Shown here: in pieces, positions 2,399 to 20,905 of the stretch
Layout: every line of letters begins with the position of its first letter
How positions within the stretch are numbered: position 1 is the stretch's first letter
Position numbers and translations under genes: made by a program
The notes under the pieces: model-generated
Told to the model about the DNA's origin: nothing
Databases searched by the model: none
What the model saw: the letters and a program-made list of their open reading frames with translations, nothing else
Source: Mucilaginibacter aquaedulcis
GTDB lineage: Bacteria > Bacteroidota > Bacteroidia > Sphingobacteriales > Sphingobacteriaceae
Length of the DNA: 64,000 bases
Reading direction: 5' to 3'
Assembly: GCF_030409325.1 (NCBI RefSeq)
Contig: NZ_JAUFPR010000002.1
Span: forward strand, 1,364,001 to 1,428,000

Positions 2399-3601
2399 AT
2401 GTGCAAAAATATTATCATTGTATCTCAAAGTCATTTATGTCGAAATCCAAGAGTGTTGAAAGAAGCGCTGGCGTTGGCTGGAGTTGGTTACCATATTACC
2501 ATTCTAACAGCTATTTATAGCGATGATCTCTATCGCGAAGACCTGTCTTTACTTGCCGGTCAAAAAATAAGATACGAGATTTACAGTGACTTACGACAGC
2601 GGAATTTCCGTTCGTTCAAAGCGCGGCTAATTAAAAGAGCGGCACTGTATATGAAAAAACTAGGTATCGAAAGCATTTATCTTTTAGGTTATGATGCTTA
2701 TCGTCTAAAAAAAACGATAGCACTACGAAGAGCCGGTTTGTATATTATGCACCAGGAGTTGGCAACTGTTATCGGAAGCGTTCTGGTGAAAAACCAGCGT
2801 GTAGCATTCGATATGGAGGACTGGTATTCCGAAGATTTGTTATCCCAAGCTTACAAGACCCGGCCTATAAAGCTTTTGAAAAATGCTGAAAAAACAGCCA
2901 TTGAAACAGGTGCAGCATGTTACACCACTTCTATTGCTATGGCAAAAACCATGCAATCCTATTATCGAACCTTGAGACAACCTGCGGTTATTTACAATTC
3001 ATTTAACTACACTGAAAGTATTGTTAGACAACCCCGGCAGGATATTTTACAACTATATTGGTTTTCCCAAACCATTGGTGAGGGTCGAGGGCTAGAGTTT
3101 TTTATCAAATGCATGGCAGAAAGTACCACCCGGTGCAGGCTGAGTTTGAGAGGGATTGTAACTGAAGCTTATCAAGCAAACCTGAGTAAACTGATCACGG
3201 CAAAAGATAGCATAGAATTTTTGCCAATGTTAAAAAACAATGAAATCCAGGCAGACATGATAAAATACGATGTAGGTTTGGCTCTTGAGTTAGAAAAGCC
3301 GCCGAATAAATACCTGACAATATCAAATAAGCTGTTTCATTACATGGCAGCAGGTTTACCGGTCATCGCTTCACACACGATGGGGCAACTAGAAATAGCT
3401 AGGCAATGTCCAGGTTTAATATTTTTGTACAAACAGAATCAATCCCATGAGCTGATTGAAATACTGAACATTATGGGTATTAAATTGCAGAACAATGAAT
3501 TGACTGGCTTAAAAAGAAAAATGCTCGAGCATTACCGATCCAAATTCTCATGGCAGATTGAGGTTAATAAGCTTGTTAAGCTCATCAAAACTATTTATTG
3601 A
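2399..3601 (+). CDS. Glycosyltransferase, GT4-like
   Basis: A 400-residue GT-B type glycosyltransferase. The N-terminus IIIVSQSHLCRNPRVLKEAL is the usual first strand and acceptor-side helix of GT4-like enzymes, and the C-terminal segment NKLFHYMAAGLPVIASHTMG is the donor-side helix that follows the catalytic Glu loop. It starts 24 bases after the preceding gene with ATG at 2399. Downstream there are 269 bases without a convincing gene before the next glycosyltransferase, so an operon break or internal promoter is possible there. Substrate unknown. Confidence 0.75.
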   Translation: MCKNIIIVSQSHLCRNPRVLKEALALAGVGYHITILTAIYSDDLYREDLSLLAGQKIRYEIYSDLRQRNFRSFKARLIKRAALYMKKLGIESIYLLGYDAYRLKKTIALRRAGLYIMHQELATVIGSVLVKNQRVAFDMEDWYSEDLLSQAYKTRPIKLLKNAEKTAIETGAACYTTSIAMAKTMQSYYRTLRQPAVIYNSFNYTESIVRQPRQDILQLYWFSQTIGEGRGLEFFIKCMAESTTRCRLSLRGIVTEAYQANLSKLITAKDSIEFLPMLKNNEIQADMIKYDVGLALELEKPPNKYLTISNKLFHYMAAGLPVIASHTMGQLEIARQCPGLIFLYKQNQSHELIEILNIMGIKLQNNELTGLKRKMLEHYRSKFSWQIEVNKLVKLIKTIY

Positions 3602-3870: not shown

Positions 3871-5145
3871 TTGTCCAAAAAACTGCTTATAATTTCCCCA
3901 TACTTCCCGCCTGTCAATGCGGCCGATATGCAAAGAGTACGGATGAGTCTCCCATATTTTGCCGAAAACGGCTGGGACGTTGAAGTGGTTGCCGTCGCTC
4001 CTCAATATACCGATATTAACCAGGATGAATTACTTTTACAAACGGTACCAGACTCCGTTATCGTTCACCATGTTAAGGCATTGCGCAAGCAGTTTACTTC
4101 GAAGCTCGGCCTGGGAAGTATTGCGCTACGTTCTTTTTGGTATTACAAGCAAAAGGTCAATCACTTATTGAAAACTAGACATTACGACCTTATTTATTTC
4201 TCGACCACACAATTTCCAGTCTGTGTTTTAGGTGCCTATTGGAAAAAACGATTCGGGATACCTTATGTCATTGACCTTCAGGACCCATGGCACTCTGATT
4301 ATTATTTGCACAAGAATAAGAAAGACCGGCCTCCAAAATATTGGTTCTCTTACCGACTGAATAAATACCTGGAACCAATAGCGTTGAAAAACGCTGATGG
4401 ATTGATTAGCGTCTCTCAAGCTTATATTGTGCAAATCCAAACCCGCTATCCCGAAATTACGTCTATTCCTACGGCAGTAATTACCTTCGGAGGTTTCGCT
4501 GCAGATATGGGTGTTGCTCTTAGCAATCGCGGCTTGTTTAAACCGCTATTACCTGAACATACTATTAATATCGTTTATATCGGACGGGGAGGTAAGGATT
4601 TTCATTTGGCCATTTCTCCATTTTTTGAAGCATTCAGTGCAGCGATTAAAAATCATCCGAAACAGTATGCCGATTTTAGATTCCATTTCATCGGCACAAG
4701 TTACGCGACATCGGGTCAAGGCAGGCCCACCATTATGCCACTCGCGAGACAATTCGGGCTGGAATCTTTCGTAATCGAACAGACAGACCGGATCAGCTAT
4801 TATCATACGCTTATCACACTACTTAAAGCTAACGCACTATTCATTCCGGGATCAGATGATCCTGCTTACACAGGGTCGAAAATTTACCCCTATCTGCTCT
4901 GTCGCAAGCCATTACTGGCAATTCTGCATAAAGAAAGCTCGGCAGGTCAGATTCTAAAAGCATGTGGGGCAGCACATGTTTACAATTATGAACATATCAG
5001 CTTAAGAGAAGTTCATTTGTTTTTTGAGGAACTGCGCTGTGGAACACTCAAAAATCCAGATTATAATGCTGCCGTTATACACCAATATTCCGCCGAAGTA
5101 ATGACTAATGTCCAATCAAATTTATTTGATCAGGTTATACAATAA
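3871..5145 (+). CDS. Glycosyltransferase family 4, TTG start
   Basis: A 424-residue GT-B glycosyltransferase. The N-terminus begins with the strand KKLLIISPYFPPVNAADMQR, a classic GT4 opening in which the conserved FPP/G region lines the acceptor site; a central strand INIVYIGRGGKDF opens the donor domain. The start is TTG at 3871: the codons behind it run straight into the conserved first strand and no ATG lies in reach, so the weak codon is probably real. The gene overlaps or nearly abuts the next one. It is part of the exopolysaccharide operon; the sugar transferred is not predictable. Confidence 0.75.
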   Translation: MSKKLLIISPYFPPVNAADMQRVRMSLPYFAENGWDVEVVAVAPQYTDINQDELLLQTVPDSVIVHHVKALRKQFTSKLGLGSIALRSFWYYKQKVNHLLKTRHYDLIYFSTTQFPVCVLGAYWKKRFGIPYVIDLQDPWHSDYYLHKNKKDRPPKYWFSYRLNKYLEPIALKNADGLISVSQAYIVQIQTRYPEITSIPTAVITFGGFAADMGVALSNRGLFKPLLPEHTINIVYIGRGGKDFHLAISPFFEAFSAAIKNHPKQYADFRFHFIGTSYATSGQGRPTIMPLARQFGLESFVIEQTDRISYYHTLITLLKANALFIPGSDDPAYTGSKIYPYLLCRKPLLAILHKESSAGQILKACGAAHVYNYEHISLREVHLFFEELRCGTLKNPDYNAAVIHQYSAEVMTNVQSNLFDQVIQ

Positions 5146-5149
5146 AAAG

Positions 5150-6301
5150 GTGAAAAGATTAGCTATCGTTACAACTCATCCAATTCAATATTATGCACCG
5201 CTTTTCCGACTCCTACAAGAAAGGAAGCGCATTTCCATCCGTGTCTTTTACTCTGCAGGTAACTACGGAGACCAATTCTATGATCCAGGTTTTGGACAGC
5301 ATATCCGCTGGGATATTCCCTTGCTGGATGGCTATGAATACGAATGGGCAGAGAACAACGCCTCGAAACCAGGCACGCACCATTTCAGAGGAATTATCAC
5401 TCCTAGCCTTCCGGCCCAGATCACTTCTTGGCAACCAAACGCACTGCTAGTTATTGGCTGGGCTTTTCAAAGTCATTTGCAAACACTCAGACATTTTAGC
5501 GGCAAGCTTCCCATCTATTTTCGTGGTGATTCAACGTTACTGGATGAAGATAAAAACTTAAAAGAAAAGCTCAAATACCTTTTGCTCCGTCGAATATATC
5601 GTCACGTTGACCATGCTTTTTATGTAGGTACAGCAAATAAAGCTTATTTCCAGAAATACGGATTCAAAGACGAACAGTTGAGTTTTACCCCTCATGCGGT
5701 GGATAACGAACGCTTTAGCCTTAAGAGGTTGGAAGAAGCCCGCCAGTTGCGTACACAACTAAACATTCCTGAAGAAGCGATCGTAATTCTGTTTTCGGGA
5801 AAGTTCGAAGAGAAAAAATCCCCTATCCTACTACTTCAGGCATACTTAGAATCATCCGTTCGAGGTACGCATTTGCTTTTTTGCGGAGCCGGAAAGCTCG
5901 AAAGCAAGCTACGGCATTTGGCAAACGGACACCCTCATATACATTTTTTGCCTTTTCAAACACAGTCTTTCATGCCGGTTATTTATAATTGCTGTGATCT
6001 ATTCTGCCTCCCATCAGGTGGACCCGAAGAGAGCTGGGGGTTGGCAGTAAATGAAGCGATGGCTGTTGGCAAAGCAGTGCTCGTTTCCGACAAGACCGGT
6101 TGTGCCACTGATTTGGTTTCTTCAAAAAACGGAGCGATCTTTTCAAGTAATAATAGAAAAGCGTTAGCCCAACAATTAAAAATGATGACCCCATCGCTGG
6201 AATTCCTACGTAATCTTGGAAGAAATTCTCAAAAAATTATTCAGGACTGGAACTTTACTGCAATAGCCGTTGAAATTGAGCGCAAACTAATCGAGGATTA
6301 A
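5150..6301 (+). CDS. Glycosyltransferase family 4, GTG start
   Basis: About 383 residues from GTG at 5150, preferred over an ATG at 5108 because the conserved N-terminal strand KRLAIVTTHPIQYYAPLFR follows the GTG directly and the upstream codons overlap the preceding gene. The donor domain shows FSGKFEEKKSPILLLQA (hinge and first donor strand) and ESWGLAVNE, an EX7E motif that binds the nucleotide sugar and carries the catalytic glutamate in retaining GT4 enzymes. Typical length for the family. It is followed within five bases by the polymerase gene, consistent with one transcript. Confidence 0.85.
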   Translation: MKRLAIVTTHPIQYYAPLFRLLQERKRISIRVFYSAGNYGDQFYDPGFGQHIRWDIPLLDGYEYEWAENNASKPGTHHFRGIITPSLPAQITSWQPNALLVIGWAFQSHLQTLRHFSGKLPIYFRGDSTLLDEDKNLKEKLKYLLLRRIYRHVDHAFYVGTANKAYFQKYGFKDEQLSFTPHAVDNERFSLKRLEEARQLRTQLNIPEEAIVILFSGKFEEKKSPILLLQAYLESSVRGTHLLFCGAGKLESKLRHLANGHPHIHFLPFQTQSFMPVIYNCCDLFCLPSGGPEESWGLAVNEAMAVGKAVLVSDKTGCATDLVSSKNGAIFSSNNRKALAQQLKMMTPSLEFLRNLGRNSQKIIQDWNFTAIAVEIERKLIED

Positions 6302-6305
6302 ATAC

Positions 6306-7709
6306 ATGAAAAATAAAGAAGCGCCGGTTAAATATTTGCCGCTATTTTTGCCATGGATCATTGCTACATTAATCTCTGGATCGTCAACTGTATCCTATCT
6401 GGTGGCATGGCTTGGCTCCTTCTTTATTTTTTTCATGAGTTATTCCGGATCAATGAAGCCATTACCTGATGATCTCCCAATTTCCAGACAAATCATGAGG
6501 CCAATCTTTCTAGTGCAAATCATATTTGCGGGTTATATGTGTTGTACGTCAATTTTCTACGTGATGAACATTTATGGCTATCATAACTTTCAGAAGATAT
6601 ATGCTGTAGTGGATGAAAATCAACTTGCACTGGCAGCGGCTTGTCAACGCTACTACTGCCTTGGTCATGCTTCATTTACGACCGGCTTGCTGTGTTTTAT
6701 CGATTATCGCTTTAAAAAAAATTATGCATTAGCCAAACTGGATTTTGCAGATTTATTGTTTTGGGCAGCGGTCATCTCGTTTCCTTTGTCCATTATCTTT
6801 CTAGTCATTCCCGGACTGTCTCAGTTTTCAAATCAGTTTACCTCGCTCAGTTTTATTGGTTGTACAGTTGCACTTGCTTTTGCGATTCCTAGAAAAAAAA
6901 TTTTAAACACGCTAATCTGCTTGTTCCTTTATATTTCAAACTTCCTTACGGCTTTGACCTCGGGCTTTAAGGAGCCTATCTTATTAAGCGTATTAGTTCT
7001 CGGCATTTTCTTATATCCGACCTATAAACGAATGGTTCTGATCACATTTGTACCTGCAATACTCTTTCTCTTTCTGGTTTTGCCGACGTATGCTGCTGTC
7101 TTCCGTCAGAGTGCCTGGACGGGGGCAGAAAACGCAGAAGAAGCCAAATCGGAAGCACTGGATGCGGCCCTTAATAAAGAATCTGTAGCCGACGAAACTA
7201 CGTGGGATTTTTTGGTTTATCGCCTAAGTGAAATTGATATGTTCACCCAGTTCATCGAAACTACACCTGCAAAAATTCATTATTATAACTTTGACCTGAT
7301 CAAACAAGCTTTTATTGTTTTGGTTCCCAGGATCTTTTGGTCATCAAAACCGAACACTGAACAACTTGTGATGCAACGCGTTTACGCCGCCGGTGTCATC
7401 AATCCGAACTCGACTGTTTCTGCTAAACCAGCTTATGTTGTCGATGCCTACTTATCGGGAGGGGCGGTAGGAGTCTTTTTAAGTCTCTTTATTTACGGAG
7501 CCATAGTTCAATTAATTTCTTTAAGAGCAGAATCCCTCTTTGGCGGTTATGAAATAGGTACAGCGCTAATCTTTTCCGGACTCTTTCAAATCTTCTGGAG
7601 GGGTTTGAGTTTTGAATTCATTTTTAATAACGTGTTTTGGGGATATTGCACCATGATCCTTATTGCCGATATATTACGCAACAAAAACATACTAAAAGAA
7701 GTCGATTAG
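6306..7709 (+). CDS. Wzy-like polysaccharide polymerase (multi-pass membrane protein)
   Basis: A 467-residue, strongly hydrophobic protein with roughly ten to twelve membrane segments and one large soluble loop (about residues 265-340, rich in Glu/Asp/Ala). This layout of many helices and one long periplasmic loop is that of O-antigen/exopolysaccharide polymerases, which join lipid-linked repeat units on the periplasmic side. The segment RIFWSSKPNTEQLVM and the charged loop recall the Wzy-like proteins found beside exosortases in Bacteroidota, and an exosortase-like domain does occur at the end of this locus; that link is an inference. It lies five bases after the last glycosyltransferase and is the last gene before a 1.1 kb gap. 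Confidence 0.75.
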   Translation: MKNKEAPVKYLPLFLPWIIATLISGSSTVSYLVAWLGSFFIFFMSYSGSMKPLPDDLPISRQIMRPIFLVQIIFAGYMCCTSIFYVMNIYGYHNFQKIYAVVDENQLALAAACQRYYCLGHASFTTGLLCFIDYRFKKNYALAKLDFADLLFWAAVISFPLSIIFLVIPGLSQFSNQFTSLSFIGCTVALAFAIPRKKILNTLICLFLYISNFLTALTSGFKEPILLSVLVLGIFLYPTYKRMVLITFVPAILFLFLVLPTYAAVFRQSAWTGAENAEEAKSEALDAALNKESVADETTWDFLVYRLSEIDMFTQFIETTPAKIHYYNFDLIKQAFIVLVPRIFWSSKPNTEQLVMQRVYAAGVINPNSTVSAKPAYVVDAYLSGGAVGVFLSLFIYGAIVQLISLRAESLFGGYEIGTALIFSGLFQIFWRGLSFEFIFNNVFWGYCTMILIADILRNKNILKEVD

Positions 7710-8824: not shown

Positions 8825-9631
8825 ATGATAATATTAGAACCACTTGGTGGTTTAGCTAATCGCATTAGGGTAATTGCTACGGCAATTTCTTTAAAGAAAC
8901 AATTGAATCAACCGTTATCTGTGGTCTGGAACGAAAATCATGAATTGAACTGCGCCTTTCATTTGTTGTTTGAACCAATTCACGAGTTTAAAATAGTATC
9001 AAAAAAACGCGTTTATAGAAACATCTGTAGTTCTGTACAACCAGATTTGAAATGCAGAATCAAGGCAGCTCTAAAAAATAGACTTACCGGAGTAGATTAT
9101 GTCATTACTGAACGAGATTTTCCAATGGACAACATAACCGAAAGACTCTTGGGTTATGGAGATATTTACATCCAAACCTGCCAATGTCTCAACGATAATC
9201 AGGAAAATTTTAAATTGTTCAAGCCTGCTGTTGAAGTTGCCTATAAGATAGATAACGCATTGCAAAAATTTTCTCCAAACACCATTGGCATACAAATTAG
9301 GAGGACGGACAACGAGATGTCTATAATTAATAGCCCGATTGAGCTCTTTATTAGCCAAATGCATAAAGAAGTTGCCAAGGACAAATCCGTTACCTTTTTT
9401 TTGACAACCGATGACCAAGACGTGGAAAGGCAGGTTATTAACATTTTTGGCGAATATATTGTTTCCCACGCCAAAGAATTGAGCCGTAATACGGTAAGAG
9501 GTATGCAAGATGCTGCTACGGATTTGTTCACGCTGTCAAGAACTCAGAAAATACTCGGTTCTTATTGGAGTTCATTTGCCGAAGTAGCAGCGTGGATGGG
9601 TAATATTCCATTAGAGGTAGTCAAAAAGTAG
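8825..9631 (+). CDS. Fucosyltransferase-like GT-B enzyme
   Basis: A 268-residue protein. It opens with EPLGGLANRIRVIATAISL, the glycine-rich first loop of the O-/N-linked fucosyltransferase fold, and has IGIQIRRTDNE in the middle, matching the H/I-x-R-R-T-D motif that binds the GDP-fucose diphosphate in the FUT8/NodZ/POFUT group. Near the end is LGSYWSSFAEVAAWM, the equivalent of the conserved G-S-x-S-S-F segment. It would add fucose, or another GDP-sugar, to the glycan. It stands alone between two gene-poor stretches, unlike the rest of the locus, and may have its own promoter. Confidence 0.75.
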   Translation: MIILEPLGGLANRIRVIATAISLKKQLNQPLSVVWNENHELNCAFHLLFEPIHEFKIVSKKRVYRNICSSVQPDLKCRIKAALKNRLTGVDYVITERDFPMDNITERLLGYGDIYIQTCQCLNDNQENFKLFKPAVEVAYKIDNALQKFSPNTIGIQIRRTDNEMSIINSPIELFISQMHKEVAKDKSVTFFLTTDDQDVERQVINIFGEYIVSHAKELSRNTVRGMQDAATDLFTLSRTQKILGSYWSSFAEVAAWMGNIPLEVVKK

Positions 9632-9984
9632 TATATAGACATTACTTAGATAATTTGCCATTTGAGCATTCTTACTTTGCCTAAAATATCAAGTCAGAGA
9701 GCCTCCTCAGCTCAGTCACTATTATCAGGAATACAGTTTAGCGCTTGCTCTATTCAATACAAAAGCAAGGTGTCCTGAACCAGTCTGCACGACATTCTCT
9801 TCTTTTTAAATTAACGTCTCGCATGCAGATAGATAAATAGCTGCTTGTCTTTTCTGAGTGAAGAATTTACTTTGAGAGCGCTTTTAATACTAAAACAGCT
9901 AAACAAATTAAGATGATTTATCGTAAAAATTGATTAAAAAAACTCATAGTCAATTAAAAATCGTAAACTTGAAATTAACGGTTT
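9632..9984. other. Intergenic stretch upstream of the Wzc gene
   Basis: About 350 AT-rich bases without a supported gene. As the region precedes a Wzc / UpxY-type NusG pair, it is a candidate for a leader acted on by the antiterminator, but I see no clear promoter or hairpin in it. Confidence 0.35.
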
Positions 9985-10323
9985 TTGAAAAAAGGCAATG
10001 CAATTACAAATTTAACAACAGACAGAATTACTTTGGTTGAAATGATAAGTGAAGCAGATGGCCTTACAGCAAAAGCAAACTTTAAACGTGCGCATCATGT
10101 GTACGGAGAACAATTCAATATGCGGATAAAATTAATCAGCCGCAATAATAGCAGGCTTATCGATAACCTCTATCCTGCCCTTCAGAGCAGCTATATTGGA
10201 AGTATAAATCAAAACAAACAGGTTATGCACAATGAAAGCCTTAGAAAATTTTTGACTGTTACTCGACCTGCGTTGCTTTCACTAAATACTGTTTTGATTA
10301 GTTTCACGATCTCACATCGCTAA
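9985..10323 (+). CDS. Possible small basic protein before Wzc
   Basis: A 112-codon open frame beginning at TTG and ending in TAATG, so that its stop shares a base with the start of the Wzc gene. That coupling favours translation. The product is polar and basic with no membrane segment or motif that I recognise. The weak start codon and lack of any family resemblance leave a chance open frame as a real alternative. Confidence 0.35.
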   Translation: MKKGNAITNLTTDRITLVEMISEADGLTAKANFKRAHHVYGEQFNMRIKLISRNNSRLIDNLYPALQSSYIGSINQNKQVMHNESLRKFLTVTRPALLSLNTVLISFTISHR

Positions 10324-12746
10324 TGGAAGAAATTTCAAAAACGCAAAGAAAGCTACTTACCCAGGAAATCGATTATTTTAAGATCGCCAAAATATTGTTG
10401 AGCCGCTGGTATTGGATAGCTGCATCTGTTGGTTTAACTGTGATAATTTCCTATACGTATTTATGGTATACACCCAAAACGTATGCTTCTTCAGGCACAT
10501 TAAAAATTGAAGAGAAGAAATCAGAAATTTCGGACATCATCACTGTAATGAGTGTTCCAGACCGTGGACCTTCAAAAATACAAAGTATCACCACGGTATT
10601 ACAGAGCCGTAATCTAATACTAAATGCTATTAAAAAACTGGACTATCGGATTAGTTTTTATCTCATGGGGCGTGTTCGAACGACTGAACTATACCCCGCA
10701 AAACCACTCGACATTGACCTAATTAAGTTTGACAGTTTGAACTTTTATCATGATCAAATCAGTTTTAAATCTGTAAATCAAAACTCATTTGAACTAACAT
10801 ATGCCATTGCGGGTAAAGAAGTTCAAAAAAAATATGATTACGGTTCAACTGTAGACATCGGCCCAACAAGTTTTTCCATAAAATACCCAGGTGTTCTGAG
10901 TAAAAACACAACTTATTTATTCAAATTCAACATACCTGAAGACTATATTAATCGTGTGAGAGGGGGTTTGCAGATGGGTGAAACTGCAAAAAACTCCAAT
11001 ATCATAGGGCTGCAGGTAACCGACTCTAACCCGCAATTTGCCTCCGATATACTAAATAATATTATGACCGAATATGTTACTTTCGATCGTAATCAAAAGG
11101 CGCAGTCGGCCTCGCAGATGATAGATTTTATTGACAGCCAGCTATCTTTCCTCTCAACCGAAGTAAAGGGTTCTGAAAACTCCATTGAAAAGTATAAGAA
11201 AAAATCAAAGATCGTTGATATATCCACAGCATCCAGTAAATCAACAACCCAGGCTGCTGAAATAGAATCAAGCCAGGCGCTATTAAAAATACAACTCATC
11301 GCACTCGACCAGCTCAAGGATCAAATCACAAGAGAAAAAAATAATGTAAACTTTAACTTTACTAATATCGGTACAACTAATCCTACACTGGAATTAGCTA
11401 TAACTAAACTTGATAATCTAATTCAGGAAAGAGATGCCCTGCTAAAAACATATAACGCTGATTCTAAACCGATAATTGATATCAACCAAAAATTGCTACA
11501 AATTAAGGTTACCGCGCTTAATAATATCAAAGATATGCGCAGCGGTATTGAAAAAAACATGGATTTTCTTAACGGTCAGCTTGCCCAAGTAAATGAGGCT
11601 TTAATGGCCATGCCGGCGGCCCAGCGCGATATGGTAAGCCTGCAACGTGATTTTGAGATCAATGACAAAGTCTATTCGTTCTTATCAGAAAAGAAACTTG
11701 AAGCCCAGATAAGTCGGGCCGGTATATTGCCTGGTGCCACGATCATCGAGCTTTCGCAGCCTAACTTTGCAGCAGTATCACCTAATGAGCGGGACATACA
11801 TCGTTCCGCTATTATCTTGGGACTGGCCATAGGTCTCGGGTTGATCATCGTTGTAAGGGTGCTCAATCCCTATATTTATGATAAGGAAACCATCGAGAGC
11901 CTTACCACTATACCCATCCTTGGTGTGATTAGGAAATTCCAGGACCCTATTGATGAGGACAACAGTGAAATCTTAGCACTCATTAAACCCAGGTCTATAT
12001 TTGCAGAGTCGGTGAGGTCAGTACGTACTAATCTAAACTTTCTTTCTTCCGAAAAACAGCACAAAGTTATATGTGTCACATCAGAAGTTGCCGGAGAAGG
12101 GAAATCATTTGTTGCTGTTAATTTATCAAGCACGCTTTCTCTTATTGACAAAAAAGTTATCCTTATTGGTGCGGATCTACGGCGTTCACGACTTCATAAA
12201 ACCTTCCGGGTTAATAATGATAAGGGATTAAGTAATTACCTGGCTCATCAAATTGAAATGGAAGATATCATTCTCCATTCAGAGCATAAAAATCTTGATT
12301 TTATACCTTCCGGTCCGGTACCACCAAATCCTTCTGAATTATTACATAGCGAGAGAATGCGTGTTCTGATTGACCAGTTAAAGTTAAAGTATGATATCGT
12401 CATGATAGATACCGCTCCTATCGGCTTGGTCTCTGATGCCATTCCGCTTATTAGTATGAGCGACATTAATGTATTTGTGATAAGATCAGGTAAATCAAAA
12501 TTTTATGCAGCCTCTATACCACAGCGTATATCACAGGAGTATCAGCTCAACAACACAGTGATTGTACTCAACGCGTATGCAGAAGAAGTTCTGCATTCCA
12601 GGTATTATACAACAAAATTTAGCGGTGAGGGCGCTGGTTCTCACTATTATTATTATTCCGATTACAGTGGGTACGAAGATTCTGGCTATTATCTGAACGA
12701 TGAAAAGAGCCCATGGTGGAAAATAGGACGATGGTTTAAAAAATAA
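10323..12746 (+). CDS. Wzc-type polysaccharide co-polymerase with tyrosine kinase domain
   Basis: An 807-residue inner-membrane protein that controls chain length and export of the polysaccharide. Order: short cytoplasmic N-terminus, first membrane helix about residues 27-50, a periplasmic Wzz-like domain with a long coiled-coil region (about 250-470), second helix about 497-515, then a cytoplasmic BY-kinase domain. The kinase shows Walker A SEVAGEGKSF near 586, Walker A' ILIGADLRRSRLH and a Walker B-like DIVMIDTAPIG near 693. The C-terminal tail is rich in tyrosines (several YY pairs between about 760 and 795), the cluster autophosphorylated in this family. It is followed by an UpxY-type NusG gene, a usual pairing in Bacteroidota capsule loci. 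Confidence 0.92.
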   Translation: MEEISKTQRKLLTQEIDYFKIAKILLSRWYWIAASVGLTVIISYTYLWYTPKTYASSGTLKIEEKKSEISDIITVMSVPDRGPSKIQSITTVLQSRNLILNAIKKLDYRISFYLMGRVRTTELYPAKPLDIDLIKFDSLNFYHDQISFKSVNQNSFELTYAIAGKEVQKKYDYGSTVDIGPTSFSIKYPGVLSKNTTYLFKFNIPEDYINRVRGGLQMGETAKNSNIIGLQVTDSNPQFASDILNNIMTEYVTFDRNQKAQSASQMIDFIDSQLSFLSTEVKGSENSIEKYKKKSKIVDISTASSKSTTQAAEIESSQALLKIQLIALDQLKDQITREKNNVNFNFTNIGTTNPTLELAITKLDNLIQERDALLKTYNADSKPIIDINQKLLQIKVTALNNIKDMRSGIEKNMDFLNGQLAQVNEALMAMPAAQRDMVSLQRDFEINDKVYSFLSEKKLEAQISRAGILPGATIIELSQPNFAAVSPNERDIHRSAIILGLAIGLGLIIVVRVLNPYIYDKETIESLTTIPILGVIRKFQDPIDEDNSEILALIKPRSIFAESVRSVRTNLNFLSSEKQHKVICVTSEVAGEGKSFVAVNLSSTLSLIDKKVILIGADLRRSRLHKTFRVNNDKGLSNYLAHQIEMEDIILHSEHKNLDFIPSGPVPPNPSELLHSERMRVLIDQLKLKYDIVMIDTAPIGLVSDAIPLISMSDINVFVIRSGKSKFYAASIPQRISQEYQLNNTVIVLNAYAEEVLHSRYYTTKFSGEGAGSHYYYYSDYSGYEDSGYYLNDEKSPWWKIGRWFKK

Positions 12747-12762
12747 ATATATATCATTTAAT

Positions 12763-13278
12763 ATGAATTTAAGAACAAGCGTAACGGCAAAAAAATGGTA
12801 TCCTGTATATACACATCCACGTGCTGAAAAAAAAACACTTGAGGCATTAACCAGTAAAGGGATTCAAACCTACCTTCCTCTTCACCGTCAGCTCAAAAAA
12901 TGGAGTGACCGTAACAAATGGGTAGAAGAGCCATTGATCAAGTCTTATGTATTTGTAAACATAGCCGAACATGAACAGGCTGCCGTATTAATGACCAAAG
13001 GAATTTCCCGTTTTTTATATTTTTCGGGTAAACCTGCTTCGATGCCTGACCGACAGATCAGCGAATTAAAACTATTAATGGCAAGCTCTTTTGAGCTTGA
13101 AATTGTAGAAGAAGATCTTCAGCCTGGTGAAAAAATAATCATTAAAGCGGGTCCATTAAAAGGAATGATTGGAGAAGTGGTATCACGCCGGTCTCAAAAA
13201 CAACTTATTTTAAGATTGGAAAGTATAGGTCGCTCTATTATAGTACATGTTGCGGCATCGTTTATTGAACGTTTTTAG
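12763..13278 (+). CDS. UpxY-type NusG paralogue (transcription antiterminator)
   Basis: A 171-residue protein with an NGN domain at the N-terminus (KKWYPVYTHPRAEKKTLEAL is the typical first strand and helix) and a KOW-like C-terminal part (PLKGMIGEVV near residues 127-136). In Bacteroides, UpxY proteins of this form let RNA polymerase read through their own capsule operon. Here it sits 16 bases after the Wzc gene and before asnB, in the middle rather than at the front of the locus, so it may act mainly on the genes that follow. It is smaller than housekeeping NusG only by the usual margin. Confidence 0.88.
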   Translation: MNLRTSVTAKKWYPVYTHPRAEKKTLEALTSKGIQTYLPLHRQLKKWSDRNKWVEEPLIKSYVFVNIAEHEQAAVLMTKGISRFLYFSGKPASMPDRQISELKLLMASSFELEIVEEDLQPGEKIIIKAGPLKGMIGEVVSRRSQKQLILRLESIGRSIIVHVAASFIERF

Positions 13279-13293
13279 ACAGATCAGTAATAA

Positions 13294-13320
13294 ATTTCCA
13301 GTTATACACTAACCGGAAAT
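13294..13320 (+). promoter_or_regulatory. Hairpin downstream of the NusG-like gene
   Basis: ATTTCC-A-GTTA and TAAC-C-GGAAAT form a 10-pair stem with one internal mismatch and a five-base loop, in the 147 bases between the UpxY-type gene and asnB. No T-run follows, so it is not a standard terminator; a pause or antitermination signal is possible but unproven. Confidence 0.35.
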
Positions 13321-13425
13321 AACGTAAGACACTGCTTTATAAATAAATATAAAAAGCATTAAAGATCAATGAATTACATAATTAAAATGTAACTCATGAG
13401 GCGAAGCTATGAAAAATCATAAAGC

Positions 13426-15213
13426 ATGTGCAGGATAGCAGGAATAATTGACAGCCGGCTTCCCCTTTCGGAAATAGATCAAAGGGTACAGACTATGTGC
13501 CGAATGTTACAGCATGGCGGTCCTGACGATGAAGGTGTTTTCCTCGATGACCGGGGCCACCTGGGTTTGGGTCACCGCAGGCTTTCCATTATTGACCTAA
13601 GCAGCAAGGGACATCAGCCGATGGCTGATAATTTGCACCAGTTTTGGATTACTTTTAATGGTGAAATTTACAACTATCCTGAACTCCGGAATGAATTATT
13701 AAAGCTGGGCGCGGTATTCAGATCGGGCACGGATACAGAAATTATCCTTGCGGCCTTTTCTCAATGGGGAGTTGATGCGTTTGCAAGACTACGAGGCATG
13801 TTCGCCTTCGCGTTATATGACCGCCTCAACCAGCTAACGTATCTTGTAAGAGATACCGCCGGAATAAAACCCATATATTACTTAGCCCGGGATGGCGCTT
13901 TGGTTTTTGCTTCAGAGATCAGGGCATTTTCCGCTGCCGGTATCAATACAGAAAAAGACCACAAGTGGAGCATAAGGTTCCTGGCTTACGGCCATATCCC
14001 GGAACCTTGTACTACACTGAAAGATGTTTTCAGCTTACCCAAGGGACATTTTTTACGCTGGGACAATGCTTCATCATCGTATAATATAACTGCATATGGT
14101 GAACCTCAAACAAAAAATCTGGTCACAGATGTTCATGAGGCCCGGCAAATTGTGTACAATGCCTTGACAAAAAGCGTAAGCAGGCAATTGATAGCTGACG
14201 CCCCTGTTGGCGTATTTTTAAGCGGCGGTATCGATTCAAGCCTCATCGCGTTAATTGCCAATGGGCAAAAAGAAAAAAAGCTCAAAACGATATCCATTTT
14301 TTTCAACGAAAAAAAATATGATGAGCAGTCATATCAACGCAAAGTCATCGATAAGCTGGATGCTGAAAGTTTTTCGCACTTGGTACGCCAGCAGGATTTT
14401 GAAGCCGCGTTTCCACATATCATGAAGGCGATGGATATGCCTACAACCGATGGCATAAACAGCTGGTTTATTAGCAAGTATGCCCGTTTAAACGGATTGA
14501 AAGCTGTATTGTCTGGCATAGGCGCCGACGAGCTTTTTGGCGGATACCCATCCTTTAACCGGATAAAATATCTGAAATATCTGCGAAAAATTAATCCATC
14601 TTTATTTTCAGCTTTTTCAGTATTTCTGCCGGATAAATATAAAAAACTGGCTTTTCTGACAAACGAACACCCACTGGCTGACCATCTTTTGCTAAGGGGA
14701 CTATTTTCACCAAATGAAATTGCCAGGTTGCTGGATGCAGATAGTAATGAGATAAAGGAAACACTTTTTAACGCCGTACCTGTAATCCCCGCAAACACTT
14801 ACGATAAAGTTCATGCCTCATGGCTTGAAACCAATTTGTATATGCAGAATCAATTACTCCGTGACACCGATGTAATGAGCATGAGTCATGGCCTCGAAGT
14901 CAGGGTACCTTTTTTAGATGAAGATTTTACCGCTGCGGTGGCAAGCATTGATCCTGCTCTAAGATTTGATAACCGGCAGCCCAAAAAACTACTTGTTGAC
15001 AGTTTTAAAGACATGTTGCCTACTGATATATGGAACAGGCCTAAAATGGGTTTTACCTTCCCCCTCCAACAGTGGATGATGCAGCACCATGCTATCATTA
15101 ACGTTGATCATTACCGGGGTAAGATGGCCAAAAACCTGATTGGCAAATTCAGCAACAACGAAATACACTGGTCTAAGATTTTCGCACTTTACCAGATACA
15201 GGGCCATGCCTAA
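13426..15213 (+). CDS. asnB: Asparagine synthetase (glutamine-hydrolysing), AsnB type
   Basis: A 595-residue two-domain enzyme. The start ATG-TGC puts Cys2 at the N-terminus, where it is the glutaminase nucleophile after Met removal. The first about 200 residues are the class II amidotransferase domain (RGMFAFALYD near 125-134), and the synthetase domain has the ATP-pyrophosphatase loop FLSGGIDSS near residue 264. AsnB-like enzymes in exopolysaccharide and exosortase loci are thought to amidate a sugar acid or act in an associated modification rather than to feed protein synthesis; that is an inference from context. Its stop overlaps the start of the next glycosyltransferase by eight bases. 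Confidence 0.9.
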   Translation: MCRIAGIIDSRLPLSEIDQRVQTMCRMLQHGGPDDEGVFLDDRGHLGLGHRRLSIIDLSSKGHQPMADNLHQFWITFNGEIYNYPELRNELLKLGAVFRSGTDTEIILAAFSQWGVDAFARLRGMFAFALYDRLNQLTYLVRDTAGIKPIYYLARDGALVFASEIRAFSAAGINTEKDHKWSIRFLAYGHIPEPCTTLKDVFSLPKGHFLRWDNASSSYNITAYGEPQTKNLVTDVHEARQIVYNALTKSVSRQLIADAPVGVFLSGGIDSSLIALIANGQKEKKLKTISIFFNEKKYDEQSYQRKVIDKLDAESFSHLVRQQDFEAAFPHIMKAMDMPTTDGINSWFISKYARLNGLKAVLSGIGADELFGGYPSFNRIKYLKYLRKINPSLFSAFSVFLPDKYKKLAFLTNEHPLADHLLLRGLFSPNEIARLLDADSNEIKETLFNAVPVIPANTYDKVHASWLETNLYMQNQLLRDTDVMSMSHGLEVRVPFLDEDFTAAVASIDPALRFDNRQPKKLLVDSFKDMLPTDIWNRPKMGFTFPLQQWMMQHHAIINVDHYRGKMAKNLIGKFSNNEIHWSKIFALYQIQGHA

Positions 15214-16318
15214 AAAAATAATACTTTTTACATTACAAACTTTTAGCACGACAGGCGGCATTCAAAAAATGACCCGTACTTTGGGGCATTCGCTCCAAAA
15301 GATCGCCTCGGCCAACAACTGGACATCTGAGTTATGGTCCGCTTACGACAACCCGGCAGATCTGATGAGTCAATATGTGCCCAGGGAAAACTTCAGAGGA
15401 TTTGGCATTAACAAGGTAAAATTCGCTTTGCAGGCGCTGATAAAGCCGCCTGATATTATCATATTAAGCCACATTAATCTCGCCATCATAGGATTGCTCA
15501 TTAAACTCACCAATCCCAAATGTAAAGTATGGGCAATAGCCCATGGTATAGAAATCTGGCGACCACTTTCGTTCATCCAAAAAAGTCTGTTACAACGCTG
15601 TGACAAAATTATTTGCGTAAGTAGATACACAAGGCAGCAGATGATTCAAAGGCAGCAAGTAGCAAAAGAAGCTTGCGTGGTCTTGAACAATGCTATCGAT
15701 CCGTTCATGAAACTACCTGATACTTTTGAAAAAGCAGCCTATTTACTCGAGCGTTATGGTCTAAACGATAAGCACCGGGTTATTTTCACCCTGACTCGTA
15801 TGGCAGCCACAGAAAAATATAAAGGATATGAGCTTGTAATAGAAGCTATTAGTTATTTAAAAAAACAATTTCCTGACATCAGGTATGTATTATCGGGTAA
15901 ATATGACCCACTGGAGGATATAAGAATTCATGACCTTATTAGCCAGTATGATTTGTCGGAGCATATCATACTTACCGGTTTTATAGAAGAACATGAACTC
16001 GTTGATCATTTTTTACTTGCGGATCTATTTGTTTTACCCAGTAAAAAAGAAGGGTTTGGGATTGTATTTATTGAAGCCTTAGCCTGCGGATTGCCGGTTA
16101 TTTGCGGCAACGCCGATGGTAGTGTTGATGCTATCCGCGACGGAGAATTAGGCAAAGCTATCAATACAGATAATTTGACGGAATTGCATGCCTGCATAGC
16201 TGATTACCTGGATAAGCCATTAACACCGGCTAAACGTAAACAGTTACAAAAACAATGCTTGGGTTATTTCAACGAAGCAAAATATATTGATCAACTACAG
16301 GAGCTTTTACATGAATGA
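15206..16318 (+). CDS. Glycosyltransferase family 4
   Basis: About 370 residues from ATG at 15206, inside the last codons of asnB; an earlier ATG at 15140 would give a long overlap and a non-conserved leader. The first strand KKIILFTLQTFSTTGGIQKM includes the G-G-I-x-K/R acceptor-side loop. The donor domain has TRMAATEKYKGYELVIEAI and EGFGIVFIE, a clear EX7E motif. It is a cytoplasmic, retaining-type glycosyltransferase. It ends in an ATGA overlap with the ABC permease gene, so this block is transcribed together. Confidence 0.88.
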   Translation: MPKKIILFTLQTFSTTGGIQKMTRTLGHSLQKIASANNWTSELWSAYDNPADLMSQYVPRENFRGFGINKVKFALQALIKPPDIIILSHINLAIIGLLIKLTNPKCKVWAIAHGIEIWRPLSFIQKSLLQRCDKIICVSRYTRQQMIQRQQVAKEACVVLNNAIDPFMKLPDTFEKAAYLLERYGLNDKHRVIFTLTRMAATEKYKGYELVIEAISYLKKQFPDIRYVLSGKYDPLEDIRIHDLISQYDLSEHIILTGFIEEHELVDHFLLADLFVLPSKKEGFGIVFIEALACGLPVICGNADGSVDAIRDGELGKAINTDNLTELHACIADYLDKPLTPAKRKQLQKQCLGYFNEAKYIDQLQELLHE

Positions 16319-17181
16319 ATACGTTAACTGACGACGAAAACTGGGATATAGAAATTACTGCGAACAGCAAGCTTTTAGACTTAAAACTTAAAGATGTATG
16401 GCAATACCGCGACTTGCTCATATTGCTCGTACGCCGTGATTTTGTATCATTTTACAAACAAACGATACTCGGCCCAATCTGGTTTTTCATACAGCCGGTC
16501 ATCACTATACTTTTTTATACTTTGGTTTTCGGCAACCTGGCGGCTATACCTGTAGATGGTCTTCCGAAACCGTTGTTTTACCTTGCCGGAACTATTATCT
16601 GGAGTTACTTTGCAGAATGTCTTACAAAAACCTCGACCGTTTTTAGGGATAATGCAGGTCTGCTTGGAAAGGTTTATTTCCCCCGTTTAATCATGCCCCT
16701 GAGCATTGTATTATCAAACCTGATAAAATTTGGGGTCCAGTTTATTTTGTTTCTTCTGCTTTATCTTTTTTATTGGTTGAAAGGTTCGCTTATTAGCCCT
16801 AATATTTTCATTATAGCACTTCCGTTCCTAATTACCATGATTGCCGCTCTGGGTTTGGGTGCAGGTATGATTATATCAGCTATAACCACCAAATACCGCG
16901 ATCTTGCATTCATTGTATCTTTTGGCGTCCCACTTTTAATGTATACAACAACCGTTATCTTTCCCCTATCTGTTGTTGAACAAAAATACCCGGCTTACAG
17001 TTGGTTGATCAGATTTAATCCGGTAACGGCTATCATTGAAACTTTCAGGTATGGTTTTTTAGGGCGCGGAGCTTTCAGCTGGGAGCTTATAGGCTACAGT
17101 TTGATAACTACACTCATCATATTGCTGGTAGGTACAATTATATTTAACCGGGTTGAAAAAACCTTCATAGATAAGGTATAA
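16315..17181 (+). CDS. ABC-2 type polysaccharide export permease (Wzm/TagG family)
   Basis: A 288-residue membrane protein with six predicted helices. The amphipathic N-terminal segment LLILLVRRDFVSFYKQTILG and the following PIWFFIQPVITILFYT match the ABC2_membrane family, whose members form the channel that moves lipid-linked glycans to the periplasm. Such permeases need a nucleotide-binding partner (Wzt/TagH), normally the adjacent gene, but no ABC ATPase of that kind is found anywhere in this locus. The partner is either elsewhere in the genome or lost. The locus also contains a Wzy-like polymerase, so both export logics are represented. Confidence 0.88.
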   Translation: MNTLTDDENWDIEITANSKLLDLKLKDVWQYRDLLILLVRRDFVSFYKQTILGPIWFFIQPVITILFYTLVFGNLAAIPVDGLPKPLFYLAGTIIWSYFAECLTKTSTVFRDNAGLLGKVYFPRLIMPLSIVLSNLIKFGVQFILFLLLYLFYWLKGSLISPNIFIIALPFLITMIAALGLGAGMIISAITTKYRDLAFIVSFGVPLLMYTTTVIFPLSVVEQKYPAYSWLIRFNPVTAIIETFRYGFLGRGAFSWELIGYSLITTLIILLVGTIIFNRVEKTFIDKV

Positions 17182-17207
17182 ATGTCAAAGCAAACATCGC
17201 ATAACAT

Positions 17208-18368
17208 TTGTACATCAAAGCAAATTTGAAGATACTTCAAATATCGGCCTCATACAAACCCGCGTTTATTTACGGCGGCCCAATCATGTCTGTTGCCATG
17301 CTTTGTGAGCAACTTTCCAAAGCGGGCCACCCAGTGAATGTATTCACGACAACAGCAAACGGAGACCATGAGCTTGATGTGATACCCGGGAGCAGTGCAT
17401 TTATTGATGGAGTTCAGGTGAACTATTTCAAGCGCATCACTAAAGACCATAGCCATTTTTCGCCTGCTCTGTTAAAATCTTTGTGGAAAACCGTAAAAAA
17501 TTATAATGTAGTGCATATCCACGCCTGGTGGAACCTTGTATCCGTATTATCCTGTGTTATAGCAGTGTGGCGGGGGGTACCTGTATTAATATCTGCCAGA
17601 GGAACTTTAAGCCCTTATTCCTTTCAAAATAAACATAAGGGTGTCAAATTACTTATTCATCGCCTGCTTGGCATATCATTGTTAAAAAAATGCCATTTCC
17701 ATACTACTTCGGATAGGGAAAACGAAGCCGTTCGTGCTATCATCACCCCAAAGAGCATCACCAATATAGCTAATTTTGTAAAATCCTCTCCTTTGGAAAA
17801 TAAGTTGATCAGGCATATTTCATCCCCTTCCCGATTAATTTTCCTTTCGCGTATAGAAGAAAAAAAAGGCTTGGATATATTGATCCGCTCATTACCTGAG
17901 CTAACTTTCCCATACACACTCACAGTTGCCGGTGACGGGGATAAAAATTACATCAGCTGGTTAAAAATGCTGGCCAAAGAAAACCAGGTGGACCACCACA
18001 TCTCCTGGATAGGCTTTCAAAATGAGCAAAAGTTTGAACTGCTGCGAGAGCATGATCTGCTGGTGCTGACCTCTCATGATGAAAACTTCGGCAATGTGGT
18101 AATTGAAAGCCTAAGTCAGGGAACGCCAGTATTACTTAGTAAAAAAGTGGGTTTATCCAACTATGTTACGAAAGGCGGTTTAGGCTGGGACTGTGAGCTT
18201 AATCCGGGTGATATCAGCAATAAATTGAATCATATTCTTAATGATACTGATGAATTGGACCGCATTCGCAAAATAGCTCCTGCCAAAATCCTTGCAGATT
18301 TTGATAGTGAGAAGCTCCTTAAACAATACATTGCTCTTTACAATGGGATAACGGCTAATCATCAATGA
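17208..18368 (+). CDS. Glycosyltransferase family 4, TTG start
   Basis: About 380-386 residues. An ATG at 17181 runs into a stop, so the start must be TTG, either at 17208 or at 17226; the latter gives the common family opening MKILQISASYKPAFIYGGP. The donor domain has FLSRIEEKKGLDILIRSLPE and ENFGNVVIE, an EX7E motif with the two catalytic-site glutamates. The N-terminal G-G-P loop is the acceptor side. Its stop overlaps the ATG of the next gene, which is the glycosyltransferase-exosortase fusion. Confidence 0.85.
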   Translation: MYIKANLKILQISASYKPAFIYGGPIMSVAMLCEQLSKAGHPVNVFTTTANGDHELDVIPGSSAFIDGVQVNYFKRITKDHSHFSPALLKSLWKTVKNYNVVHIHAWWNLVSVLSCVIAVWRGVPVLISARGTLSPYSFQNKHKGVKLLIHRLLGISLLKKCHFHTTSDRENEAVRAIITPKSITNIANFVKSSPLENKLIRHISSPSRLIFLSRIEEKKGLDILIRSLPELTFPYTLTVAGDGDKNYISWLKMLAKENQVDHHISWIGFQNEQKFELLREHDLLVLTSHDENFGNVVIESLSQGTPVLLSKKVGLSNYVTKGGLGWDCELNPGDISNKLNHILNDTDELDRIRKIAPAKILADFDSEKLLKQYIALYNGITANHQ

Positions 18369-19762
18369 ATCCTTTCTATTCCGTTATCATTCTTACTTAT
18401 AATGAGGAGCAACATTTACCCCGCCTGCTGGCTTCCATTAATGGCTTAAATGCGCCATTGTTCATCCTGGATTCGGGCAGTACAGATGCAACTTTAGAAA
18501 TTGCAAAACTGGCAGGGGCTACTATTCTTATGCATAAGTTTGTTAATCACCCTATGCAATGGGATTACGCCTTACGAAATTTCGACATCGTCACGCCTTG
18601 GGTTATTTGCCTTGATGCAGATCAGGTAGTCAGCTCTGAGCTGATGGGAATGCTGAACAGCTTTGAGAAAGAAAATCCAGCGGAGATCAATGGCATATAC
18701 GTTAATCGTAAAAACTTTTTCAAGGGGCGCTGGATCCGGCACGGCGGCTATTATCCTTTTTACCAACTCAAAATATTCCGGTTTGGTATAGGACATTCTG
18801 ATCTGAACGAAAATATGGATCACCGGTTCATCGTTCCAGGTAAAAAACTAACCTGGAAAAGGGGTTATCTTATAGAAGAAAACTTAAAGGAAAACAACAT
18901 ATCTTTCTGGATAGATAAACATAATCGATATAGCGATTTGGTGGCCCAGGAGGAAGTAGAACGCTTGATGCATATCAGAGGCCAAACGCTTCAACCCAAT
19001 CTGATTGGCACGCCTGATGAACGTAAGGCGTGGTTCAAGCGGCTATGGTGGCAGTTGCCGCGCTATGTGAGGCCGGCCTTATATTTTTCCTATCGAATGA
19101 TATTTCAGTTGGGCATACTTGAAGGGCGCACTGGTATAATATTTCATTTTCTGCAGGCTTTCTGGTTCCGGCTTGTGGTTGACATTAAAATTGAGGAACT
19201 CCTTAAAAGCAATCCAAATCAGGTTTCAAATCATCAATTATCACCTTTCAAATTCGTATTGAAATTTTCAGTACTGTTTTTTGTTTTCTATTATTTTAAT
19301 CTATTGTTTCTGGGTATTACCAGTCCTGGAAACCATTACAACTCTTTTTTAGCAACACACCTGAACTATATTGAGGGACTGCGCTCTATTTTATTATCAG
19401 CGACCTCACTCGTCATTAACTGGTTTGGTTTTACAGTTATTCACAATCATATAGACTTATTGGTTGTTGGAAGGGACGCCATTCGTTTGGCTTATGATTG
19501 CCTGGGTTTTGGTCTGATGAGTTTTATCACAGCCTTTGTAATAGCATATCCCAAAAAACTAAGCCAAAAACTTTTATTTTTACTCCCGGCAATCCTGGTT
19601 ATACAGTTGCTCAACATAGCACGACTTGTCATACTGGCCTTATTCTGGAACCGAAAAGCTAATCAAGCAATCGATCATCATACCCTGTTTAATATCATCC
19701 TTTATATTATTATGATGGTGAGCATCTATAGCTGGGTTAAAAGGGATAATAATGCTTGTTGA
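18365..19762 (+). CDS. GT2 glycosyltransferase fused to an exosortase-like domain
   Basis: A 465-residue fusion. Residues 1 to about 265 are a GT2 enzyme of the WaaE/KdtX type: YSVIILTYNEEQHLPRLLAS at the start, LDSGSTD, and the metal-binding LDADQ near residue 80. Residues about 295-460 are a multi-helix membrane domain with the exosortase/archaeosortase layout: Cys379 in YDCLGFGLM, Arg420 in NIARLVILALFW and His438/His439 in DHHTLFN, the Cys-Arg-His set that forms the proposed active site of that family. Exosortases cleave C-terminal sorting tails or act with exopolysaccharide assembly; no protein with a recognisable sorting tail is in this window. It is the last gene of the locus, before a strong terminator. 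Confidence 0.8.
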   Translation: MNPFYSVIILTYNEEQHLPRLLASINGLNAPLFILDSGSTDATLEIAKLAGATILMHKFVNHPMQWDYALRNFDIVTPWVICLDADQVVSSELMGMLNSFEKENPAEINGIYVNRKNFFKGRWIRHGGYYPFYQLKIFRFGIGHSDLNENMDHRFIVPGKKLTWKRGYLIEENLKENNISFWIDKHNRYSDLVAQEEVERLMHIRGQTLQPNLIGTPDERKAWFKRLWWQLPRYVRPALYFSYRMIFQLGILEGRTGIIFHFLQAFWFRLVVDIKIEELLKSNPNQVSNHQLSPFKFVLKFSVLFFVFYYFNLLFLGITSPGNHYNSFLATHLNYIEGLRSILLSATSLVINWFGFTVIHNHIDLLVVGRDAIRLAYDCLGFGLMSFITAFVIAYPKKLSQKLLFLLPAILVIQLLNIARLVILALFWNRKANQAIDHHTLFNIILYIIMMVSIYSWVKRDNNAC

Positions 19763-20079: not shown

Positions 20080-20905
20080 TTACCAACCCGGGTTTTGACT
20101 CAATGCCGGATTTCTTTGTAACTGAATAAACGGAACCGGCCAGTGATAATGTTTAGGATCACCAAATTGCCTTCCGGTTTGAACAATCACGTAACCATCA
20201 TTATCAACAGCCACATTACTTACCTGGCTTTGAGATAACACTAATGACCTTTTCACTCCCATTACATCGTCACCAAGCAATGCACCTTGTTTCCAGCGCA
20301 TCATATCAAACCAATTCTGGCCTTCACGTGCTAATTCAACTCCACGTTTTCTTCTTATTTCAGTACGCAGGTCAAGCCCGTTAGCAGCAAGTTCGGTGAT
20401 TGACATTCTTTTCATCCCTACCCTGTCTCCTAATTTATTAATAGTAACATCAATATCAGTTTGGGTAAGCGTTCCCTCCTCCAACTTAGCTTCAGCATAA
20501 TTTAGCAGGATTTCGGCCAGGCGTAATATGTAAATATCGTTCTGATCTTTTGACATTTGAGATACAGTGGTCAGTTCAACTTATTTTGTGAAATTATACC
20601 CGGTTATGGTAACAGAACCCAGTTTATCAGACACGAACTTAGGTGCCGTAAAAATCAATGGATTGGTGTTGGCAGGGTTACCATCTTTTTTTTTCACCCC
20701 AGGATTCTCCCGGAGCCAGAATTGTCATCCGCATGCGGGGATCCCTGTTTGCCCATACATTTTCGTAGGTATCTTCTTTGTATACAGGTGATTTACCTAT
20801 TGGTAAACCATCTGTACATAAATAGGCATCAACTAAAGCTTTTGTTGGGTTATAACGTGAGCCCTGTTTGTTCAGATTTTGTTGGTAAAAGGTATTATCA
20901 TTTCA
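20080..20905 (-). pseudogene. RagB/SusD family lipoprotein, 5'-truncated and frameshifted remnant
   Basis: The minus strand encodes the C-terminal half of a SusD-type outer-membrane binding protein, with the family's hallmarks RYNPTKALVDAYLCTDG, YILRLAEILLNYAEAKLEEG and ELAREGQNWFDMMRWK. Three lesions are visible. There is no N-terminal half or signal peptide upstream of about 20905. A run of nine A (minus strand, around 20694-20702) shifts the frame between GESWG and DGNPANTNP. An in-frame TAA lies at 20581-20583, nine codons before the ATG of the last 158-codon piece. No SusC partner lies on this strand. It is a dead remnant of a second uptake locus. Confidence 0.85.

Follow-up and report, generated by a model that had tools for sequence, protein, structure and literature searches.

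A recurrent natural fusion of a GT2 glycosyltransferase with exosortase Y in an exopolysaccharide locus of Mucilaginibacter

Exosortases are widespread. In the EpsH/XrtA-PEP-CTERM system the model foresees transfer onto a periplasmic nucleophile of undefined identity, and EpsH is also known fused to other domains (EpsI and a CAAX-protease-like domain) (PMC1569441). Cyanoexosortase B of Nostoc punctiforme lies within a Wzx/Wzy-type polysaccharide locus; as far as the accessible part of the report goes, PEP-CTERM proteins are its presumed targets, a possible covalent link between protein and hormogonium polysaccharide is suggested, and no fusion to a GT2 glycosyltransferase is mentioned (PMC12188702). 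Among the Bacteroidota, the exosortase XrtF of Flavobacterium johnsoniae (TIGR04128) is needed for biofilm formation and surface colonisation, and its targets are not known but are expected to differ from PEP-CTERM proteins (PMC10936215). XrtF has its own adjacent partner gene, and no GT2 fusion is reported for it. The exosortase Y (XrtY) system comprises three NCBIfam models, for the exosortase itself (NF046083), an XrtY-associated glycosyltransferase, XYAG1 (NF046085), and an XrtY-associated Wzy-like protein (NF046084). The literature searched held no published XrtY experiment and described no substrate or acceptor for either Bacteroidota exosortase, XrtF or XrtY.

We analyzed a stretch of 64,000 nucleotides of the Mucilaginibacter aquaedulcis genome (hereafter the window). 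A first reading of the sequence alone had proposed that one gene in it is a natural fusion of a GT2 glycosyltransferase with an exosortase-like domain, and both the fusion and the identity of its C-terminal part were borne out. The gene at 18365-19762 (+) is an uninterrupted ATG frame of 465 codons. The GT2 domain occupies approximately residues 1-278 (18365-19198, +). The first reading had described this part as WaaE/KdtX-like; residues 6-136 match PF00535, a model for GT2 enzymes in general, with 44.3 bits (cut-off 23.3), and the aspartates D36, D41, D84, and D86 (the last two in a DAD motif at 84-86) are invariant in an alignment of 21 fusions. No specific GT2 model scored above its cut-off in the NCBIfam profile search; stand-alone GT2 genes matched the fusion at 35-38% from residue 6 to approximately residue 280-290. 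Junction sequences and AF2 confidence delimit a variable linker of approximately residues 279-293 (19199-19243, +), in which pLDDT falls below 50 at residues 286-290. The exosortase Y domain follows at residues 294-458 (19244-19738, +), matching NF046083 over model positions 4-168 of 168 with 219.9 bits (cut-off 160); the C-terminal half also carries the exosortase/archaeosortase signature TIGR04178 (43.7 bits, cut-off 23). As XrtY is both the best and a full-length match, assignment of the domain to a different membrane family was ruled out. A sequencing error hiding a stop was also ruled out: the single frame occurs in 22 of 41 XrtY-bearing Mucilaginibacter genomes, and its presence in many species shows that it is neither chance nor a concealed stop.

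Compared with the described systems, the locus fits XrtY best, with a full-length exosortase match and both partner genes present. The NF046083 model covers an exosortase only, whereas the window protein has an additional GT2 joined at its N-terminus, which also sets it apart from XrtF, whose model it matched at 42.5 bits (cut-off 90). It shares with EpsH/XrtA the exopolysaccharide (EPS) setting and the idea of a Cys-Arg-His site, but Pfam EpsH (PF09721) stayed under its cut-off of 25.7 (17.1 bits for the whole protein, 20.1 for the domain alone) and the host genome gave no match to the PEP-CTERM model TIGR02595 at E <= 1. The placement within a polysaccharide locus resembles that of cyanoexosortase B.

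The surrounding genes belong to the EPS locus of the XrtY system of Mucilaginibacter and its relatives. The XYAG1 gene at 17208-18368 (+; 549.1 bits, cut-off 400) directly precedes the fusion gene, with the stop of the one and the start of the other sharing 4 bases (ATGA); the XYAG1 product resembles HpsP of hormogonium polysaccharide at 177.9 bits, below the HpsP cut-off. The Wzy-like protein is encoded at 6306-7709 (+; 710.9 bits, cut-off 420). Ahead of it lie two GT4-like glycosyltransferase genes at 2399-3601 (+; Glyco_trans_1_4 just below cut-off) and 3871-5145 (+; Glyco_transf_4) and a GT4 gene at 5108-6301 (+; Glycos_transf_1), all three also assigned to the locus by conserved order. 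The usual order in Mucilaginibacter relatives is GT4-like genes, Wzy, XYAG1, a methyltransferase, GT2, XrtY, and a WcaF-like acetyltransferase. Wzy and XYAG1 adjoin in most relatives; in the window a stretch of ∼8 kb lies between them (8825-17181, +). It encodes a 268-aa ORF, a Wzc-like tyrosine autokinase, an UpxY antiterminator, an asparagine synthase, a GT4, and an ABC-2 permease. This gene set is absent between Wzy and XYAG1 in the compared relatives, and the stretch is a rearrangement or insertion in the window. A truncated SusD-like fragment lies on the opposite strand after the fusion gene (20080-20556, -). In Mucilaginibacter, a conserved membrane protein of ∼523 aa that belongs to no Pfam or NCBIfam family is often encoded two genes past xrtY (for example 17094-18665 in locus L077, turned, and 17233-18804 in locus L064); it is not found at that place in the window.

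We examined the proposed active site, which the sequence-only reading had placed at Cys379, Arg420, and His438/439. Across 36 aligned XrtY sequences, Cys379 (codon 19499-19501, +), the candidate nucleophile in a Y-x-C-L-G motif, Arg420 (19622-19624, +; L-N-x-x-R), and His439 (19679-19681, +; D-H-H) showed no variation, whereas His438 is replaced by Gln in one of the 36, which makes His439 the stronger candidate for the catalytic residue. In the AF2 model of the exosortase domain (pLDDT 85.3), long helices occupy domain residues 6-31, 94-106, 111-139, and 147-175. We predict four membrane helices with the Cys-Arg-His triad near the periplasmic face; if the proposed topology holds, an additional modelled helix at domain residues 47-65 must be non-spanning. 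The parts rich in Lys and Arg are the segment preceding helix 1, the 397-402 loop, and the C-terminal tail. In the XrtY sequences the inside segments carry approximately 1.6, 3.0, and 2.7 Lys plus Arg and fewer acidic residues, outside loops 1 and 2 (319-334 and 356-378) are slightly acidic, and loop 4 is near neutral. This positive-inside pattern agrees with a predicted exosortase active site at the outer face of the inner membrane. GT2 enzymes use nucleotide sugars and are hence cytoplasmic, so the GT2 site is placed on the cytoplasmic side. The two sites are thus predicted to lie on opposite sides of the membrane, and the fusion alone would be unable to hand a sugar from GT2 to a cleaved protein.

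Structural searches of the exosortase domain (PDB profiles and Foldseek) gave no significant match, and a second structural comparison returned common helical arrangements only, so the family identity of the domain rests on sequence. For the whole model, Foldseek placed two peptide S-glycosyltransferases, SunS and ThuS, at the top. Sequence matches are confined to approximately the first 105 residues, and for this reason no function was deduced from these matches.

Mucilaginibacter species are slime-making soil bacteria, and nearly all titled relatives of the fusion came from this genus and other Sphingobacteriaceae. The host genome encodes a single exosortase above cut-off. XrtY was above cut-off in 41 of 61 Mucilaginibacter genomes; adding the frame-broken genome G440 gives 42 XrtY-bearing genomes, all of which contain the GT2 (threshold E <= 1e-40). 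The GT2 was detected in one of the other 19 (G433), where two matches both end early at approximately residue 252 and one begins at contig base 1, so the locus was probably broken in assembly; this genome also carries Wzy. Wzy is distributed like XrtY in the 61 genomes except in three (G399, G430, and G433). In a wider sample, all seven XrtY-bearing genomes tested with the XYAG1 model scored above its cut-off, as did one genome that has no XrtY above the exosortase cut-off. The joint inheritance of GT2 and XrtY indicates that they probably belong to one shared pathway. In G440, two GT2-XrtY copies (locus L098 on contig C8, and contig C23) are each frameshifted within the exosortase.

The likeliest interpretation of these data is that two co-translated components of a known EPS system have been fused recurrently. 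In the explanation that we favor, and consider probable, neighbouring genes of the EPS locus became joined in a natural fusion that tethers two enzymes, a GT2 acting on the repeat unit and an XrtY acting on protein tails. The GT2 half would be cytoplasmic and act on the lipid-linked EPS repeat unit, and the XrtY half would cleave or transfer the C-terminal tail of at least one putative secreted protein that accompanies the polymer. The fusion may mainly fix the stoichiometry of GT2 and XrtY, and it would tether GT2 to the membrane site at which the locus polymerises and decorates its polymer; by itself it would make no linkage between glycan and protein.

How often the two parts are joined bears on the tethering step. 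A long GT2-XrtY frame of 465-510 codons is present in 22 of the 41 Mucilaginibacter genomes (one of them with an extra 327-codon partial copy), and a stand-alone XrtY of 188-208 codons in 20. Genome G446 contains a fused gene on one contig and a separate XrtY on another (C161 and C110) and may be a mixed bin. At 80 GTDB loci, a count that leaves out the window and two extra loci, GT2 and XrtY were fused in 42, adjacent but separate in 37, and gapped in one, whose GT2 frame ends ∼730 bases upstream of XrtY. Separate pairs overlap in 33 of 39 cases, mostly by 4 to 26 bases and in another frame, and 30 of the 39 share one particular other frame; a small indel is therefore enough to join or split the genes. 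Since the two genes are found split about as often as fused, the fusion is dispensable for function. Neither active-site motif was lost through joining or splitting, and the retention of both sites in separate genes is equally well explained by two functions linked by nothing more than a common operon.

These counts suit a neutral fusion, in which genes that overlap shift between shared and different frames and joining brings no gain: split and fused forms are similar in frequency, and the split genes overlap by a few bases. The fused or separate state is strongly clustered on the trees, however, with 3 to 5 changes compared with 15 to 24 in shuffles, and one tree (3 changes vs. 24 shuffled) has large fused clades of 22 and 13 rows. 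Such clustering could be produced by shared descent alone. We consider neutral drift possible but somewhat unlikely as the whole account; it can be reconciled with the favored explanation in every step except tethering. Well-supported branches of the XrtY tree are compatible with one origin of the fusion, and the GT2 tree, on its well-supported branches, requires no fewer than two changes of state. Each of two GT2 subfamilies, ∼39% identical, is found both fused and separate, which shows that joining or splitting occurred more than once.

Lipid II serves as the acceptor of Gram-positive sortases, and by analogy GT2 could finish a lipid-linked glycan that is flipped across the membrane to become the acceptor onto which XrtY transfers the cleaved protein. 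The co-inheritance and repeated fusion of GT2 and XrtY speak for such indirect coupling, as do the periplasmic nucleophile expected as acceptor in the PEP-CTERM/EpsH model (PMC1569441) and the possible protein-polysaccharide link suggested for cyanoexosortase B (PMC12188702). The carrier needed to cross the membrane between the two sites could be such a flipped lipid-linked glycan. Set against this, the stretches scanned contained no substrate, and close relatives of the GT2 occur in EPS loci without an annotated exosortase, which suggests that the GT2 has an independent role. Those relatives are on alphaproteobacterial plasmids, in EPS loci where the gene tables, which are incomplete, annotate no exosortase nearby; one adjoins a methyltransferase, as in most relatives of the window. 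Indirect coupling is improbable on balance, and slightly more so its stronger form, a sortase module spanning the membrane in which XrtY takes the flipped GT2-made glycan as acceptor. If true, the latter would name the nucleophile of an exosortase. The sequence-only reading had proposed that protein processing and glycan transfer are coupled, for instance by attachment of the glycan to the cleaved protein. The EPS setting and the co-inheritance sustain an indirect link between the two activities; beyond that, the proposed coupling lost ground through the predicted topology, the roughly equal frequency of split and fused genes, and the lack of a sorting-tail substrate in the stretches scanned.

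That reading had also called for a search for proteins with a C-terminal sorting tail, and none turned up in the stretches scanned. The window encodes no protein whose C-terminus combines a helix with a basic end. Beside xrtY in ∼120 loci there was no convincing tail substrate; the few automatic matches proved to be fragments of genes or small membrane proteins, none of them at more than two loci. A scan of 400 kb from the host chromosome gave a single match, a regulator-like protein that lacks a signal peptide. As the scan covered less than one tenth of the host genome, a substrate family can be ruled out only if it is very large. With no XrtY substrate in these stretches, proteolysis by XrtY is predicted from its family membership.

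Alternatively, the exosortase half might not sort proteins here and might instead have the polysaccharide, or the lipid that carries it, as its substrate on the periplasmic side. Its linkage to a Wzy-like polymerase and glycosyltransferases fits this, as does the failure to find a sorting-tail protein in the scanned stretches or a PEP-CTERM match in the genome. However, the Cys-Arg-His motif in its exosortase surroundings is fully conserved, the tail scan was of limited extent, and XrtY tails may differ from PEP-CTERM, as proposed for XrtF (PMC10936215). We regard action on the polysaccharide as the most doubtful of these alternatives. Direct glycan-to-protein ligation by the fusion is disfavored by the predicted location of the active sites on opposite membrane faces.

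The GT2 is inherited with XrtY, is repeatedly fused to it, and stays paired with it even when exchanged for a second subfamily, which suggests that the partner of the exosortase is the polysaccharide pathway. The fusion also limits how the exosortase core can be oriented. With fused, split, and XrtY-less species in one genus, Mucilaginibacter is suited to a substrate search by comparison. The exosortase family is already named; the GT2-XrtY architecture is new within the literature searched, but may well be familiar to those who curated the NCBIfam models.

Two further loci deserve mention. In genome G397, the XrtY-associated Wzy gene is present in three tandem copies (contig C40, 102197-106972). 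In a genome of another family, an apparently secreted protein of 1060 aa is encoded directly before a divergent exosortase (locus L096, turned, 12380-15562) and is a possible substrate candidate of that exosortase.
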